NCBI GenBank assembly: GCA_947598485.1
Contig: CANQFJ010000018.1
Span: forward strand, 1-32,130
Direction of reading: 5' to 3'
Origin: an uncultured Bacilli bacterium
Lineage (GTDB): Bacteria > Bacillota_I > Bacilli_A > RF39 > UBA660
DNA: 32,130 nt
Shown piece after piece: positions 19,411 through 32,026 of the stretch. The notes beneath the pieces were generated by a model. That model ran no database searches. It was not told the origin of the DNA and saw only the letters and a list, made by a program, of their open reading frames with translations. Position numbers and translations under genes: made by a program. The number at the start of each line of letters is the position of its first letter. The first letter of the stretch is position 1.

Positions 19411-20290
19411 AATATTAGGAAGAAGCATTAGAGATGCTTTCAAAAGCGTAATTAGAAACTTTTCTTTATCAATGGCAAGCATTCTTTGCGTAACGATTAC
19501 TTTAATTATTATGTCCGTAGCCATTATTGTGGCGTGTAATATAAAGGAATCTACTAAGACCATTGAAGAAGAAATGCACATTATAGTTTATATGAAAAAT
19601 GAAGCAACTGATGAAGATAAAGAAAATCTTGAATTAGAAATTAAAAATACTAAAAATGTTCGCAAAGTTGAATACATAAGTAAAGAAAGTCAAAAGCAAT
19701 CTATGGAAGAATATGATGAATTATTTAAAACTTTATTAGATTACTTAGATGTTAACCCACTTCTTAGTTCATTTATTATCTATGTTGATGATATTGAAAA
19801 GATGAGTGATACTGCCGATGATTTAAAAGAGCTTCCAAATGTTGAAACAGTAAAATATGGTGAACAAACCGTAGAAGAAGTTGTAGGAGCCTTTGATGTT
19901 GTTGAAAAAATAACGCTAGGAATTGTTATTGCAATGCTTTTAGTTACAATTTTCTTAATAAGTAATACTATTAAATTAACAATTTTCTCAAGAAGAAGTG
20001 AAATTGAGATTATGCGTTTAGTTGGTGCTAGCAATATGGCAATAAGATTACCATTTTTATTCGAAGGATTAATTATTGGAATTATAGGATCAATTATTCC
20101 GGTTTGTATTACTATTTATGGCTATGTAATATTAAATAATGCTATGAATGGTCATATCTTTACTGAGCTTCTTAAATTAATCGAACCATATAATTTTGTC
20201 TTCTATGTATCAGGCGTTCTAATTTTAATAGGCGCTATTGTTGGTATGTTAAGTAGTGGACACTCTGTAAGGAGGTATTTAAAGATATAG
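19397..20290 (+). CDS. ftsX: FtsX, cell-division ABC permease
   Basis: This 297-residue protein has four membrane helices. Helix 1 follows RDAFKSVIRNFSLSMASILCVTITLIIMSV, an extracellular domain (about 50-160) follows, and helices 2-4 are in the C-terminal half with SRRSEIEIMRLVGASNMAIRLPFLFEGLIIGIIGS, the FtsX/MacB-type permease signature. GTG 19397 was chosen because AAAGGAAG lies 11 bases upstream and this gives the family-typical N terminus. An in-frame GTG at 19367 lacks a ribosome site. The extracellular domain is expected to contact the PcsB-like hydrolase encoded next. Confidence 0.93.
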   Translation: MKAIRILGRSIRDAFKSVIRNFSLSMASILCVTITLIIMSVAIIVACNIKESTKTIEEEMHIIVYMKNEATDEDKENLELEIKNTKNVRKVEYISKESQKQSMEEYDELFKTLLDYLDVNPLLSSFIIYVDDIEKMSDTADDLKELPNVETVKYGEQTVEEVVGAFDVVEKITLGIVIAMLLVTIFLISNTIKLTIFSRRSEIEIMRLVGASNMAIRLPFLFEGLIIGIIGSIIPVCITIYGYVILNNAMNGHIFTELLKLIEPYNFVFYVSGVLILIGAIVGMLSSGHSVRRYLKI

Positions 20291-21501
20291 TGAAAAAATT
20301 TGTAAAAATACTTTTGCTATTAAGCGTTTGCTTTGTTAACTTAAAAAATGTTTATGCCGATAATACATTAAGAGATTTAAAGAATGAATTACAAGGCTTA
20401 ATTAATAAAAAGGCTGCCAATGAAGCCGAGAAAAATCAAACTCAAAGTGAAATCGACTCTACTAATGCTGCTATTACAAAAGCTCATCAAGACGTTGAAA
20501 AGGCTGAAACAGAGATTGAATTAGCTAAGGAAAAGATTGAAAGTACTAATACTAAAATAGAATCTTTAAAAGATCAAACTGGTCGTCTTTTAGTTTTCTA
20601 TGAAATAACAATAAATGATAACTCTTTAACTAGTTATATCGATTCAGCTTCAAGTGTAACGGATTTAATCATGAGAGGTGAGGCCATATCTCAAGTTTTA
20701 GATTATAACCAAAAGCAATTAAGAGGACTTGAAGACCTTATCTTAGAAAATGAACAAATGCAAATTGATTTAGCAAAAAAGCAAAAAGAATTAAATGAGA
20801 AAATAGATACATTTGAGGAAAGTGTAAAAAGTCTTAAAAATAATCTTTCTTCTCTAGTAGAGGTTACTGTAGGCATTGATGATGAAATAAGTGCCTTAAA
20901 ACAAAGAGTTACGTTTTATGAAAAAATAGGTTGTGAGCTTGATCAAGATTTAGATGAATGTGTAAAAATAAAATCTACTGATAGCTGGCTTAAACCTACA
21001 ACCCAAGGCTATATATCTTCAGGATTTGGTTGGCGTTCATTTATTTTAAATGGTGCTCCTTATTCTGACTTCCACCCTGGTGTTGATGTTGCTAATGCTG
21101 GGGCTCAAGCTCCTGTATATTCTGTATCTAATGGTACTGTAGCTGCTATAATATATCGTTCTGAGTGCGGTGGTAATCAAGTCTTTGTCCATTCAATTGT
21201 TCAAGGACAAAAATATACCCTTCATTATGCTCATTTATATTCCGTTAATGTTAATGTAGGAGACACTGTAACCCAAGATACTATTGTTGGTACGGTAGGT
21301 GGCGGTGGCGCTACTTTAAGGCAAAATGGAGGATGGGATACTTGCTCTACTGGTTGGCATTTGCATTTTGCTGTCGCTATGGGATATTATTTAGGAGGAA
21401 AATGTGACGGTTGCTATTCAGATTTTAATACCTTTGTATCCAAGAGTATAGAGCCTCCGTTTATGCCAAAATTTGGCCAAGCCTATTATTCAAGATATTA
21501 G
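20290..21501 (+). CDS. PcsB/EnvC/CwlO-like coiled-coil M23 hydrolase
   Basis: The 403-residue secreted protein has a signal peptide (MKKFVKILLLLSVCFVNLKN-VYA, cut near residue 24) and two long coiled-coil stretches (about 25-105 and 130-215). A C-terminal M23 domain (about 240-400) has zinc ligands HPGVDV and HLHFA and a YAHL motif. Coiled-coil-plus-hydrolase proteins encoded beside ftsEX are activated by it during division. B. subtilis CwlO and S. pneumoniae PcsB use other catalytic domains, while EnvC/M23 versions occur in many lineages. GTG 20290 overlaps the ftsX stop (TAGTG), so translation is coupled. Cys residues in the M23 part are numerous (at least six). Confidence 0.9.
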   Translation: MKKFVKILLLLSVCFVNLKNVYADNTLRDLKNELQGLINKKAANEAEKNQTQSEIDSTNAAITKAHQDVEKAETEIELAKEKIESTNTKIESLKDQTGRLLVFYEITINDNSLTSYIDSASSVTDLIMRGEAISQVLDYNQKQLRGLEDLILENEQMQIDLAKKQKELNEKIDTFEESVKSLKNNLSSLVEVTVGIDDEISALKQRVTFYEKIGCELDQDLDECVKIKSTDSWLKPTTQGYISSGFGWRSFILNGAPYSDFHPGVDVANAGAQAPVYSVSNGTVAAIIYRSECGGNQVFVHSIVQGQKYTLHYAHLYSVNVNVGDTVTQDTIVGTVGGGGATLRQNGGWDTCSTGWHLHFAVAMGYYLGGKCDGCYSDFNTFVSKSIEPPFMPKFGQAYYSRY

Positions 21502-21577: not shown

Positions 21578-22252
21578 ATGAAAAAAATAATGATTATAAT
21601 GATATTTAGTTTATTAACCACTGGATGTTTTAAAGAAGAAAAAAATAATTTAGTTGATGTGCCTATAGATACCACACCTATAGAAACTAGTGATGAATAT
21701 GTAGATAATAATCCGGTTATAGTTAGTATTTATAAAGAAAATGAAACAGGAGCTTTAGATAAAGTTATTGATAAATATGTAACTAAATGGGAGAAGAAAA
21801 AAGACATAGTTGTTTTAGCTACACTGCCTACGGATATAGAACACCCAGAATATGATTATATGCAAAATTTATGGCCTAAGTTTGATTCAGAATATGAAGA
21901 TGTAAACTATAAAATTGGCTGGAGTTTAAGCTTTGATTTAAAAAATGGCGAAAATATAACCTCAACTATTTTAAAGCCTAGTGATGCAGCATTTTATTAT
22001 GATTACCTTGAGGTATATCTTTATGATGATGTTAATGTTTCTATTGGCCAATGGCACTCTCATTTACTTGATGATGAAATAAATGATAATACTATAATGG
22101 ATGCAATTAAGCTAACTGCCGGAGAAAATTATGATGAGATAACTGGACCCATCAGTTTGACAGTATTTTCTTATGACGATCTTGAGGACTTTGATGAAAA
22201 TGGTAAATACCAAGGTAAAAGTTTATATCAAGTAAAAATTTATAATAGTTAA
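21578..22252 (+). CDS. putative lipoprotein, unknown function
   Basis: The 224-residue protein has a lipoprotein signal: MKKIMIIMIFSLLTTGC, lipobox LTTG-C17. An acidic spacer (18-50) and a globular domain rich in beta strands and Asp/Glu follow. That domain includes YKIGWSLSFDLKNGENITSTILKPSDAAFYYDYLEVYLYDDVNV and QWHSHLLDDEIN. I do not recognise the fold. It is expected to be lipidated and face outside. It lies just upstream of the repeat-protein/SipW locus but has its own predicted promoter, so a shared role is only suggested. Its start lacks a ribosome site and looks leaderless. Confidence 0.85.
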   Translation: MKKIMIIMIFSLLTTGCFKEEKNNLVDVPIDTTPIETSDEYVDNNPVIVSIYKENETGALDKVIDKYVTKWEKKKDIVVLATLPTDIEHPEYDYMQNLWPKFDSEYEDVNYKIGWSLSFDLKNGENITSTILKPSDAAFYYDYLEVYLYDDVNVSIGQWHSHLLDDEINDNTIMDAIKLTAGENYDEITGPISLTVFSYDDLEDFDENGKYQGKSLYQVKIYNS

Positions 22253-22311: not shown

Positions 22312-24387
22312 TTGAGTGAACTAGAAAATGAAAAAGCTATAATTAATGAATCTCCTGATTTTGAGACTCAAAGAGAAATAATAAATGAAGAAAAAGTTGC
22401 TCAAAAAAAGTTGAGAAAATTTTATATACATATAGGCTGTGTATTTTTTTTGATATTTATAATTATAATTACAGCTTATGTAACGGTTGATTTATATCGA
22501 GAATATAATTTCTTTAGTAATGATGTTTGTCTAAATGTTAATATTAATACTGATGGTGATGATTTTAAAAATATTAATGTTGCGGAAACTAAAGCCTGTG
22601 CTCCCGATTACAATATTGATTATTTTAATAATCGAAAAGCAACCTTTAATATTGACCTATTTGGTGATAAATCATATATTTTCAATCCTGTAGCTCAAAA
22701 TGATGAAAATGGTTATTGTAAATTAAATTGTGATTCTAATGGTGATAATTGGCCAGACTATAATATTGATTTAAATGGGGATAAAATTGCAGATATTAAT
22801 ATTGTTAAAGACTATGTTAATAGTAACAGATGTGATTTAAATTGTGATTTAAATCATGATACAATACCTGATACTAATATTGATACAAATAATGATGGTA
22901 TACCTGATATAAATATAACGGATTCCCTTAACAATAATAAACCGCGTTATAATGTTGATTACAAAGGTAATCGCAAACCTGAGTTTAATATTCAAAATCC
23001 TGATGGATCAATATTTAACCCCGTTAAAGAAGTTACTCCAGGCGTTTATTGTGATTTAAATTGTGATATAGATGGTGATGGTTGGCCTGATTATAATATA
23101 AAATTATCTGATAGAGAAACTCTTTTAAATCAGTTATATCAAACAGGAAATTCTTCTGTAGATTATAATAGTAGTAAAACAGCAGATTGGAAATGTTTTA
23201 TTTCAAGTATTTTGCCTAGTTGCGATACGAATAAGAAGACCGCGGACAATGAATACCTTAATATTGATGTTAATGGTGATGGTATACCTGATGTCAATCT
23301 ATCTAGTGATAATGGAAATAATATAACTAATAAGGTAAATACTAAAGCAACTTATAATGGTAATTCCATTATTTTAAATGAAGATTATGATAATAATGGG
23401 TTCCCCGATTTTAATATTGATATAAATGGGGATGGTATTCCCGATTTAAATATCACACAGCCGGGTACGCATACTTGTAATAAAAATTGTGATACTAATT
23501 ATGATGGCATCGCGGATTATTTGATTGATTATGATGGTAAACAAAATAATGTTATAGGAGTTAATAACTCAAATTTAGATATTGATTTTGATGGTATATG
23601 TGATGTCAATTGTGATACAAATTATGATTTATATCCAGATTTAAACATTGATATTGATGGAGATAATATTCCCGACATTAATATTGATACGAATAATGAT
23701 GGCCTAGCTGATTTCAATATCGATACTGATGGTAATCATATAGCTGATAGCAATCTTTCTGCAAGACTTGATGGAACGTGTAATTTCAACTGCACTGATA
23801 GACCTGAAACTATAATCGATTACTCTGAAAGCTGCACTACAAACTGTGATACTGATAAAGATGGTTGGCCAGATACTAATGTTGATTTGGATTATGATGG
23901 TATATGCGACATAAACTGTGATAATAAGACAAATAATATTGATAATAATCATGATTATTTTATAGATGATAATGATAAAACGAAAGATTTAGTTATTGAT
24001 CAAAATAATCGCGGTACATTTTATGTCTTAAATCCGATTGATATAACTGCTAATGATATTGAGCCTGGGTGGAAAGACACTTACGTTTTAAAAGTTACTA
24101 ATAATGCCGAATATGCTATGGCATATACTATTGACTGGCAAGATGTCATTAATGAATTTACAGAAGAAAATAATTTAAATTATGAAATAGTAAAAAATGG
24201 GGGACTTTTTTTAGGAGAAATGAGGACTCCGTACCAAAATATAGTAATAAAAGATGAAATATATATAAGACCTAAATCTACAGTTAAATATATTTTAAAA
24301 ATTGAATGGCGTGAAACTGGTGAAAATCAAAATATTGACAGTGGCAAAAGATTTTATGGAAAGCTAATTATAACACCAAAAAACTAA
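22312..24387 (+). CDS. membrane-anchored Asp/Asn-rich (TSP3-like) repeat protein with TasA-like C-terminal domain
   Basis: This 691-residue protein starts at TTG behind GAGGAG. It has a charged cytoplasmic segment (1-37), one membrane helix (about 38-60, ending ITAYVTVD), and an extracellular region (70-560) of imperfect repeats of the type D-x-N/D-x-D-G-x-P-D-x-N-I. Examples are DVNGDGIPDVN at 319-329 and DIDGDNIPDIN at 447-457. Such Asp/Asn loops bind calcium in thrombospondin type 3 repeats. Eight CxxxC pairs sit at repeat borders (136/140, 174/178, 247/251, 389/393, 430/434, 490/494, 508/512, 532/536). The C-terminal 120 residues (IEPGWKDTYVLKVTNNAEYAMAYTIDW) look like the TasA/camelysin sandwich. 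A SipW-type peptidase follows 19 bases downstream. Function is unknown; a calcium-stiffened surface stalk or fibre is inferred. Confidence 0.85.
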   Translation: MSELENEKAIINESPDFETQREIINEEKVAQKKLRKFYIHIGCVFFLIFIIIITAYVTVDLYREYNFFSNDVCLNVNINTDGDDFKNINVAETKACAPDYNIDYFNNRKATFNIDLFGDKSYIFNPVAQNDENGYCKLNCDSNGDNWPDYNIDLNGDKIADINIVKDYVNSNRCDLNCDLNHDTIPDTNIDTNNDGIPDINITDSLNNNKPRYNVDYKGNRKPEFNIQNPDGSIFNPVKEVTPGVYCDLNCDIDGDGWPDYNIKLSDRETLLNQLYQTGNSSVDYNSSKTADWKCFISSILPSCDTNKKTADNEYLNIDVNGDGIPDVNLSSDNGNNITNKVNTKATYNGNSIILNEDYDNNGFPDFNIDINGDGIPDLNITQPGTHTCNKNCDTNYDGIADYLIDYDGKQNNVIGVNNSNLDIDFDGICDVNCDTNYDLYPDLNIDIDGDNIPDINIDTNNDGLADFNIDTDGNHIADSNLSARLDGTCNFNCTDRPETIIDYSESCTTNCDTDKDGWPDTNVDLDYDGICDINCDNKTNNIDNNHDYFIDDNDKTKDLVIDQNNRGTFYVLNPIDITANDIEPGWKDTYVLKVTNNAEYAMAYTIDWQDVINEFTEENNLNYEIVKNGGLFLGEMRTPYQNIVIKDEIYIRPKSTVKYILKIEWRETGENQNIDSGKRFYGKLIITPKN
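22729..23955 (+). repeat. coding tandem repeats (Ca-binding type, degenerate)
   Basis: The DNA encodes many near-repeats of GAT-x-AAT-GGT-GAT-GG-ATA-CCT-GAT-x-AAT-AT type units of about 12-13 codons. Some occur in runs (about 23566-23745) and some are separated by unrelated spacers. Recurrent blocks include TGTGATTTAAATTGTGAT, found at about 22831 and 23050. The pattern suggests growth by internal duplication with later drift. Confidence 0.75.
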
Positions 24388-24406: not shown

Positions 24407-25087
24407 ATGAAAACAAAATATAATCGTAAATATATTTTTAAATATCTATCCACGATATGTTCATGGACCCTTTTTATATATTTAGTCCTTATCGCGGCAT
24501 TTTTACTGTTTTATTTTATTAATATTAAAATAATAAATCGAGATAAAGTAAGTCAACCATTATCAATTTACACAATTATAAGTGGTTCAATGATTCCGAC
24601 TATAGATATTTATGATGTTGTAATTAATATTAAGGTCGATAATCCCAAAGATATTAAAGAAGGCGATATAATTACCTTTATATCACAAAGTTCTATCTCT
24701 AAAAATTTGACAGTTACTCATAGAGTAAAAGATATTCAAGTCGTAAATGGAGAATATCAATATACAACCAAGGGAGATAATAATCCAATTCAAGATTCTG
24801 CTCCCGCTACATATGACAATGTAATTGGTAAAGCTGTTCTTAGAATTCCTCAATTAGGAAGGGTACAAGCCTTTATTGCTAGTAGATTTGGCTGGCTGGT
24901 TATAGTAATATTACCAGCAGTATACATTATTTTTAAAGATGTAGTTAAACTAATTAGAATAAGTAAACTTCAAAATGTTTCTAAGAAAGAAAAAGAAAAG
25001 ATTATAGACAATGATAAAAAAGATTATGACGATGATGAAAATGATGATATAATAGACGATGATGAAAGGGACGATGAAGATGACTGA
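24407..25087 (+). CDS. sipW: SipW-type signal peptidase I (Ser-His dyad)
   Basis: The 226-residue protein has a membrane helix (about 16-38), the catalytic serine motif ISGSMIPTI (Ser61), and TVTHRV with His105 in place of the usual bacterial Lys. A Gly-Asp motif TKGDNN (122-127) and a second membrane helix (about 162-177) follow. The Ser-His pair marks the archaeal/ER-like SipW branch, which in B. subtilis matures TasA and TapA. The last 26 residues (201-226) are almost entirely Asp/Glu/Asn and cytosolic, an unusual tail. A GAAAGG-type site precedes the ATG. Its likely substrate is the repeat protein just upstream. The end overlaps the DUF1292-type gene by 8 bp. Confidence 0.92.
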   Translation: MKTKYNRKYIFKYLSTICSWTLFIYLVLIAAFLLFYFINIKIINRDKVSQPLSIYTIISGSMIPTIDIYDVVINIKVDNPKDIKEGDIITFISQSSISKNLTVTHRVKDIQVVNGEYQYTTKGDNNPIQDSAPATYDNVIGKAVLRIPQLGRVQAFIASRFGWLVIVILPAVYIIFKDVVKLIRISKLQNVSKKEKEKIIDNDKKDYDDDENDDIIDDDERDDEDD

Positions 25088-25334
25088 AGGCGATTTAATA
25101 ATTCTTGATAATGAGGAAAGATATTCCTTACTAAAAAAGATATCTCTTAATGGAGATACCTATTTTATGGCCGCTTTTGTAAAAGATGATGATTTAGTAG
25201 ATAAAGAAAGAATAGTTTATTTTAGAGTAGAACAAGATGAAGATGAACAATATGTCGATCTAATAACAAGTGAAAAGGTTATAACTGAACTTACTAAAAA
25301 ATTAGCCGATGATGTAACGAAGGGTGCTAAATAG
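25080..25334 (+). CDS. DUF1292-type small acidic protein
   Basis: The 84-residue protein MTEGDLIILDNEERYSLLKKISLNGDTYFMAAFVKDDD..VYFRV-like..VDLITSEKVITELTKKLAD matches the DUF1292 pattern (short beta-rich acidic proteins of unknown function, often beside yrrK/yqgF in Bacillota). Here it is coupled to sipW instead: ATG 25080 lies 9 bases after GAAAGGG and overlaps the sipW end. Earlier in-frame ATGs (25059, 25062, 25074) are badly placed relative to the site. It overlaps the convergent symporter gene by 8 bp, inside a terminator. Confidence 0.75.
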   Translation: MTEGDLIILDNEERYSLLKKISLNGDTYFMAAFVKDDDLVDKERIVYFRVEQDEDEQYVDLITSEKVITELTKKLADDVTKGAK

Positions 25335-31423: not shown

Positions 31424-32026
31424 ATGAAAAAACTTATTTTAAACTTGATTTGCTTTTTAACGCTTATTATATTTATACCAACAGTTAGTGCTGCTGAGGA
31501 AAATAATGCTAAGGAACCTGTAAATGTATATATGTTTACTCGAGAAGCCTGTTCTCACTGCGAAGAAGCAGAAGAATACTTTGCTGAGTTATCTACTGAT
31601 GAAGAATATGGCGACTTATTTCGTTTAAACATTTTAGAAGTTTATGATGTAAGTTGGAACATTGTTAATGAAGATTATTATGATATTCTTATGGAACTAT
31701 CTAGATATGAAACTGTTCATTATAGTGGAACACCTTACATTATTGTAGGTGAGGAGGTATTTGATGGTTTTACCTCTAGTTATGATAAAGCTATTAAAGC
31801 CGAAATAAAAAGGTGTTATGATGATGGCTACTTAGATCCAGTTGTTAATTTAGATATTCTTAAAGATAGAAAAAATGATGAAGACAAGGGTATTAAAATC
31901 TTTATTAATATTGTAGCTATTACCATTGTAGTAGGAGTTGTAGCATCACTAATTGTTATCAATTTACCAAAGAAAAAAACTAATAAGTTAGAACCAAAAA
32001 GCAAATTAAAAAATAATAAAAATTAA
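31424..32026 (+). CDS. membrane-anchored thioredoxin-fold protein (CSHC)
   Basis: This 200-residue protein has a signal peptide (1-23, cut near VSA-AEE), then a thioredoxin-like domain (about 30-145) with a redox motif CSHC (in TREACSHCEEAEEYF) and a cis-Pro strand SGTPYIIVGEEVFDGF. A C-terminal membrane helix (about 157-178) and a Lys-rich tail follow. The topology places the CxxC outside, tethered to the membrane, suggesting a thiol oxidoreductase for exported proteins. The Cys-rich repeat protein at 22312-24387 is a plausible type of client, but no link is shown. An AAGGAGG ribosome site precedes the ATG. Confidence 0.88.
   Translation: MKKLILNLICFLTLIIFIPTVSAAEENNAKEPVNVYMFTREACSHCEEAEEYFAELSTDEEYGDLFRLNILEVYDVSWNIVNEDYYDILMELSRYETVHYSGTPYIIVGEEVFDGFTSSYDKAIKAEIKRCYDDGYLDPVVNLDILKDRKNDEDKGIKIFINIVAITIVVGVVASLIVINLPKKKTNKLEPKSKLKNNKN

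Follow-up and report, generated by a model that had tools for sequence, protein, structure and literature searches.

Paired cysteines exchange with hydrophobic pairs in the calcium-type loops of a predicted surface rod from gut Bacilli

Introduction

Bacillus subtilis tapA-sipW-tasA and BsaA are among the described systems closest to the locus analysed here, which resembles them in a C-terminal domain, related by profile, and in an adjoining SipW-type peptidase gene. TasA is reported to polymerise by a donor-strand mechanism (PMC9674648). Unlike in TasA and camelysin, the domain in our protein is C-terminal and is preceded by a long repeat stalk that is anchored in the membrane and rich in cysteine.

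Animal TSP3 repeats combine calcium with disulfides. The TSP3 models (PF02412, PF18884) share DxDxDG calcium-type loops with the protein described here, which differs in its uniform 12-residue units and in the placing of its cysteines, at 8 and 12 within a single loop. The twin CX3C proteins of the small Tim family have the same CxxxC spacing; there, each cysteine bonds to a partner in the opposite motif of a helical hairpin, whereas in the rod family isolated single pairs are common. BAD-1 of Blastomyces is likewise a surface protein that binds divalent cations and has one disulfide per tandem repeat, yet it is eukaryotic and built of an unrelated WxxWxxW repeat, so that the likeness ends at a disulfide per repeat (PMC3708853). 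BAD-1 is reported to bind calcium, yet NMR gave no evidence of an EF-hand (PMC3708853), a reason for caution when calcium loops are deduced from sequence.

Here we analyse a stretch of 32,130 nucleotides (the window) that makes up contig 18 of a genome of 1.26 Mb, with a completeness of 96.6%. Relatives named through protein matches (n = 14) carry Bacilli MAG labels in the majority; seven have 'Lapin' isolate names, which we read as rabbit, and others come from goat rectum and sheep rumen. Given these gut sources, the lineage is probably anaerobic. Obligate anaerobes are reported to tend to exclude exported cysteines (PMC12453122). Among the matches listed in searches of open-licence PMC, none describes the repeat reported below or its setting.

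Results

The rod gene encodes, from N- to C-terminus, a cytoplasmic tail, a transmembrane segment, a repeat stalk and a TasA-like domain:

22312..24387, + strand: rod gene, open reading frame of 691 aa, with a TTG start and a GAGGAG-type ribosome site upstream
22426..22485, + strand: transmembrane segment by hydropathy, residues 39-58 (signal anchor, possible SipW-type signal)
22492..23976, + strand: exported stalk, residues 61-555, of 12-residue DxDxDGxxDxN[I/C] loops and linkers, with 20 Cys
23977..24384, + strand: C-terminal all-beta domain, related by profile to TasA/camelysin (hhalign 99.4%, E 8.9e-22)

Within the genus, 9 of 10 genomes, the window's own included, have a match to the rod protein; the unmatched genome is 88% complete. 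We aligned the window protein with eight orthologues that are 49-73% identical to it. By a first-start rule, the start codon is non-ATG in all nine sequences (TTG in eight, GTG in one), which may lower translation of the rod gene. In the cytoplasmic tail (residues 1-38, window 22312-22425), D16, Q20, I23, E26 and E27 are kept across the nine, and a DYxEQY...EE-like stretch recurs in the tails of several more distant family members. At E up to 0.1, the TIGR04088 model of a SipW-type signal had no match among the 28 family members searched; by eye, several family members have a GATF-like segment end.

The relationship of the C-terminal domain to TasA/camelysin rests on its profile alignment with two camelysin-type proteins, which themselves match PF12389 (42.4 and 27.2 bits, cut-off 22.5), one of them also passing TIGR04088. 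For the TasA jelly-roll fold, a structural second look placed TasA at the top (5of2 and 5of1, both Z 8.0, over 124 and 123 residues at rmsd 3.1 and 3.0), a place it shares with the GOLD domain of a p24 protein, also at Z 8.0. Foldseek ranked the TasA fibre 8aur 39th (E 8.3e-3), behind unrelated folds, so a fold match alone would not settle the relationship. PF12389 itself has no match in the window protein or in the window's genome (both E up to 1), nor is it among the 18 Pfam families matched by 28 family members (E 0.05), and we therefore do not file the rod protein as a TasA/camelysin member. Profile searches found no second TasA-type gene in the window's genome.

The genes around the rod are conserved:

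21578..22252, + strand: lipoprotein-like gene, upstream neighbour in 8/8 genus loci
24407..25087, + strand: SipW-type (archaeal/ER-type) signal peptidase I (TIGR02228, 99.9 bits, cut-off 51.85)
25059..25334, + strand: DUF1292-like small gene overlapping the SipW gene (PF06949, 21.2 bits, below the cut-off of 24), in 7/8 genus loci

The lipoprotein-like, rod and SipW genes remain linked in all eight genus loci. The peptidase scores 85.6 bits with the Bacillus SipW model NF046067, below its cut-off of 190. Outside the genus, where flanks are mostly short, a SipW-like gene lies close to 12 of 30 family proteins; one locus (L037) has no SipW-like match in about 6 kb on either side. Further upstream, an M23 peptidase (20290-21501) adjoins ftsE/ftsX-like genes, named by eye, and has several cysteines in its apparently exported part. 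A phage or plasmid origin is unsupported, with no match at 1e-5.

The first-pass annotation had counted 20 cysteines in the extracellular region, 16 of them as eight CxxxC pairs, and its sequences and places for the pairs are exact. The protein has 21 cysteines in all, one (C43) in the membrane segment and 20 exported, of which C73, C96, C295 and C304 stand outside the CxxxC set:

22528..22599, + strand: C73 and C96, invariant pair outside the CxxxC set (9/9 sequences)
22717..22731, + strand: CxxxC pair 1, CKLNC (Cys invariant 9/9)
22831..22845, + strand: CxxxC pair 2, CDLNC (Cys invariant 9/9)
23050..23064, + strand: CxxxC pair 3, CDLNC (Cys invariant 9/9)
23194..23223, + strand: C295 and C304 (both present in 7/9; both gone with a block deletion in 2/9)
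23476..23490, + strand: CxxxC pair 4, CNKNC (Cys invariant 9/9)
23599..23613, + strand: CxxxC pair 5, CDVNC, positions 8/12 of an in-register loop (Cys invariant 9/9)
23779..23793, + strand: CxxxC pair 6, CNFNC (Cys invariant 9/9)
23833..23847, + strand: CxxxC pair 7, CTTNC (Cys invariant 9/9)
23905..23919, + strand: CxxxC pair 8, CDINC, positions 8/12 of an in-register loop (Cys invariant 9/9)

The interval first given for the feature, 22717-23920, holds the pairs but is too narrow for the stalk, which runs over about 22492-23976; C73 and C96 lie upstream of that interval. Eight CxxxC pairs compare with a shuffled mean of 0.71 and a maximum of 5 (residues 61-590, 20,000 shuffles).

Aligning homologues was the check proposed at first pass, and it did not find poor conservation. 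The 16 CxxxC cysteines together with C73 and C96, thus 18 of the 20 exported cysteines, are invariant in the nine sequences. In the stalk as a whole invariance is lower (47/85 Asp, 34/88 Asn, 144/495 residues overall), and the membrane cysteine C43 is not conserved. Both TGT and TGC are used in 16 of the 18 invariant columns. The codons thus drift while the residue stays, and we conclude that selection holds the cysteines.

We then compared 39 family proteins, the window's included, taken from the best-matching loci (L009, L028-L071, with L040, L042-L045 and L065 left out as repeats or near-copies), a set that is biased towards this repeat type. Their loop has a 12-residue consensus, D1 x D/N3 x D/N5 G6 x7 x8 D9 x10 N11 x12. 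There are 450 CxxxC motifs, which contain 899 of 969 cysteines; 500 shuffles gave 49.7 motifs on average and 72 at most. In one partial sequence (L057) every one of 106 cysteines, the highest count, lies in a CxxxC pair. Successive cysteines are most commonly 4, 8 or 20 residues apart; 32, 44 and 56 recur, and other spacings, for example 47 and 23, occur.

Loop positions 8 and 12 change together. Both are cysteine in 309 units and both are something else in 554, among which P-I (257), P-V (85), A-I (51) and P-L (38) lead, so that 449 of the 554 combine Pro or Ala with Ile, Val or Leu. Eight units appeared mixed, and all eight are out of register, their cysteine being part of a CxxxC in another register. 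Removal of five near-duplicates left the result the same (289 and 478 units, 7 mixed). The remaining loop positions are similar in make-up in the two kinds of unit, with Lys7 and Leu10 richer in cysteine units, and 36 of the 39 proteins mix both kinds. The co-variation of pairs that had been suggested for checking is thus present: in the orthologues and across the 39 proteins, the cysteines of a pair are gained and lost jointly. Exported cysteines are even in number in 30 of 31 complete family proteins (the exception, from G005, has 19), a count made without eight proteins cut at locus ends.

The cysteine states of neighbouring units are not associated (counts of 85, 168, 111 and 236; odds ratio 1.08, p 0.72), and this favours a disulfide within each unit. 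Similarly, 48 of the 309 C/C units are flanked by two contiguous non-C/C units, and for these, pairing inside the unit is simplest. The pairs are not independent events, and these statistics overstate independence: the proteins share ancestry, and units multiply by duplication, with contiguous units numbering 46, 41 and 33 in the longest arrays. The codon evidence from orthologues is less affected by duplication and kinship. A pairwise comparison over 220 protein pairs, in which repeat alignment is ambiguous, gave 1755 shared pairs, 1324 swaps and 30 half cases; many of the half cases listed involve transmembrane cysteines, and we base no claim on it.

An AlphaFold2 model of the last 267 residues, built with the 39-sequence alignment, has a mean pLDDT of 84, with most loop blocks at 85-92. 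As read from its secondary-structure string, bridge residues fall at loop positions 10 and 12 with a 12-residue recurrence, suggesting turns that stack, one loop to each. Its residues 131-144 (555-568 of the window protein), just N-terminal to the beta domain, are uncertain, and a full-length model from the nine sequences was poor (mean pLDDT 43). Sequence searches of the PDB found no match with either the orthologue profile (E up to 1) or the two TasA-type proteins (E up to 0.01). The C-terminal profile drew four at chance level, the best at E 0.042, and a repeat array drew weak ones to filamin or polcalcin (E 0.03 or worse). No stalk fold appears among the matches listed in the structural second look, which is uninformative because the C-terminal domain filled that list.

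The window's genome has no match to DSBA or VKOR at E up to 1; the same VKOR and DSBA searches exceeded the cut-off in 3 and 9 of 14 control genomes. It does hold five mutually matching thioredoxin-like genes with the motifs CSHC, CPFC, CPIC, CQFC and CTDC, which look exported, having signal, lipoprotein or membrane segments by eye. One of them lies in the window:

31424..32026, + strand: thioredoxin-like protein, CSHC, with a signal-like start and a C-terminal transmembrane segment by eye (Glrx-like, 18.4 bits, below the cut-off of 26)

It is a possible thiol-redox partner of the rod. In a related genome (G008), L079:787-1959 encodes a 390-aa protein in which an exported-looking thioredoxin domain (CPHC) is joined to a polytopic membrane domain that bears the motif DGFNPCA and looks CcdA/DsbD-like; the best match to this protein in the window's genome spans the thioredoxin part only.

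A profile search for the repeat protein matched 115 of 386 genomes and 48 of 150 genera of the same family (E <=1e-6, at most three candidates scored per genome), some of which may be matches to the C-terminal domain alone. A class-wide search of 395 genomes at 1e-8 matched 31, of which 27 belong to the family. The four outside it (G585, G627, G633 and G705) have the same loop pattern, for example DGDGKPDINID, and none of 65 units in their seven ORFs has a cysteine pair. Unlike in the rod, the matches listed for these proteins end before the profile's C-terminal domain, and their C-terminal ends resemble wall anchors by eye. Because the same loop occurs in other Bacilli families without cysteine pairs, the form with cysteines seems to have arisen locally, judged from a small outgroup sample. 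TSP3-type proteins of G007 (same genus), G027 and G055 likewise have no CxxxC in the stretches read. The earlier expectation that bacterial calcium-repeat proteins are usually cysteine-poor is supported by the stretches read in these three and in the four same-loop genomes.

Discussion

We consider it probable that the protein is a surface rod or matrix-fibre subunit whose calcium-type loops are individually stapled by intra-loop disulfides. The observations behind this reading are the conservation of the cysteines, their paired swapping, the repeat period, the domain relationship and the gene neighbourhood. After a short cytoplasmic tail and transmembrane segment, the chain would form a stalk from 12-residue calcium-type loops, with the TasA-like domain at its tip. 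To close its turn, each loop would bring positions 8 and 12 into contact. In some loops these would be a hydrophobic pair (Pro/Ala with Ile/Val/Leu), in others two cysteines, with Cys8 and Cys12 joined as an intra-loop disulfide that staples the chosen turn. That the pairs are oxidised is suggested by conservation, parity and swapping. Calcium, which the loops may bind to judge from DxDxDGxxD alone, would order the turns, and calcium and staples together would make the stalk stiff and protease-resistant. We infer a fibre or anchor role, in which the adjacent SipW-type peptidase would process the rod or help its assembly.

The absence of a DsbA or VKOR match, together with the avoidance of cysteines by anaerobes, means that the rod thiols could stay reduced. 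Reduced CxxxC pairs and nearby Asp might jointly hold a soft metal such as zinc or iron, making the rod a metal store or ordering it by metal, and in-register pairs do lie within an Asp/Asn frame. However, a hydrophobic pair, Pro/Ala with Ile/Val/Leu in four-fifths of the non-cysteine units, substitutes for the cysteines on a near-constant Asp/Asn frame, as expected of a structural contact. Lone pairs would supply just two thiol ligands, and C73/C96 and C295/C304 behave as pairs without the CxxxC spacing. We therefore regard reduced, soft-metal-binding pairs as improbable.

It is about equally improbable, in our estimate, that the disulfides run between neighbouring loops or between molecules and cross-link fibres. 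The second commonest cysteine spacing, 8, is that from Cys12 to the next Cys8 (123 cases), and TasA is reported to polymerise (PMC9674648). Against such cross-links stand the lack of association between adjacent units, the C/C pairs flanked by two contiguous non-C/C units and the even cysteine counts within single proteins.

Both cysteines would also travel along if two ancestral repeat types were simply copied, and the longest arrays look grown by duplication. That the pairing is a functionless by-product of such copying is very unlikely, given that the eight window pairs have diverged middles (KLN, DLN twice, NKN, DVN, NFN, TTN and DIN) and that 18 of the 20 exported cysteines are fixed in the nine sequences despite codon drift.

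The parallel with animal TSP3 drawn at first pass is not borne out. TSP3 (PF02412, PF18884) has no match in the window's genome at E up to 1, two orthologues have sub-threshold TSP matches of 11.5 and 14.3 bits, and TSP3 is absent from the 18 Pfam families matched by 28 family members (E 0.05); the same searches reach their cut-off in other proteins of the relatives. Its DxDxDG loops, those weak matches and the disulfides of animal TSP3 might suggest that the rod is a true TSP3 protein that has diverged and still forms the calcium wire typical of the family. This is very unlikely, because the window gene and its orthologues do not reach the 25-bit cut-offs of TSP_3 and TSP3_bac that relatives' other proteins do reach, and because the period is a uniform 12 residues, the cysteines sit at 8/12 and the turns are predicted to stack. 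Dockerin, EF-hand and RTX models are absent from the window protein's Pfam matches (E up to 1), from the 18 families of the 28 members (E 0.05) and from the matches of five further proteins (E up to 1). NCBIfam searches of the 28 members returned chiefly MSCRAMM low-complexity matches; we read the Sdr/Clf matches (14-17 of 28 members) as low complexity arising from SD repeats. A toxin reading was dropped, all Ntox24 and GBD_IRG7_N matches being under the cut-off.

Neither calcium-type loops nor TasA domains nor SipW are new. What appears to be new is the loop-by-loop exchange of a hydrophobic for a cysteine pair, at such a density and in a lineage whose one tested genome has no DsbA/VKOR match. 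Under the intra-loop reading, the repeat is a natural experiment that sets a hydrophobic contact against a cysteine pair in each loop, so that the worth of one staple becomes measurable, and it connects calcium-type loops with the TasA/SipW matrix system. Obligate anaerobes are said to avoid exported cysteines (PMC12453122), yet surface proteins of this probably anaerobic lineage reach 106, and the oxidant of anaerobic surface proteins becomes a direct question. It is tempting to speculate, though we hold this to be doubtful as a whole, that an uncatalogued calcium-loop repeat in which each turn has two states (P/I or C/C) forms a stapling code in the rods of gut Bacilli. On that view a rod would have as many as 53 staples, oxidised by something other than DsbA or VKOR, for which the exported thioredoxin-like family is a candidate, and its stiffness would follow redox state and calcium.

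Two proteins carry a longer variant of the repeat, of about 18-19 residues (for example CDRNCDDGSFGGxPNDGI): one from G020 (L046:1501-3534) with 26 CxxxC pairs and one from G119 (L102) with 53. The variant gives the impression of another calcium-type loop inserted into the same cysteine frame. Finally, a multi-transmembrane, transporter-like protein of G028 (L027:1090-2802, - strand) has NID-type repeats and one CxxxC in a loop, and a match in another genome (G190:C6) is similar to it.
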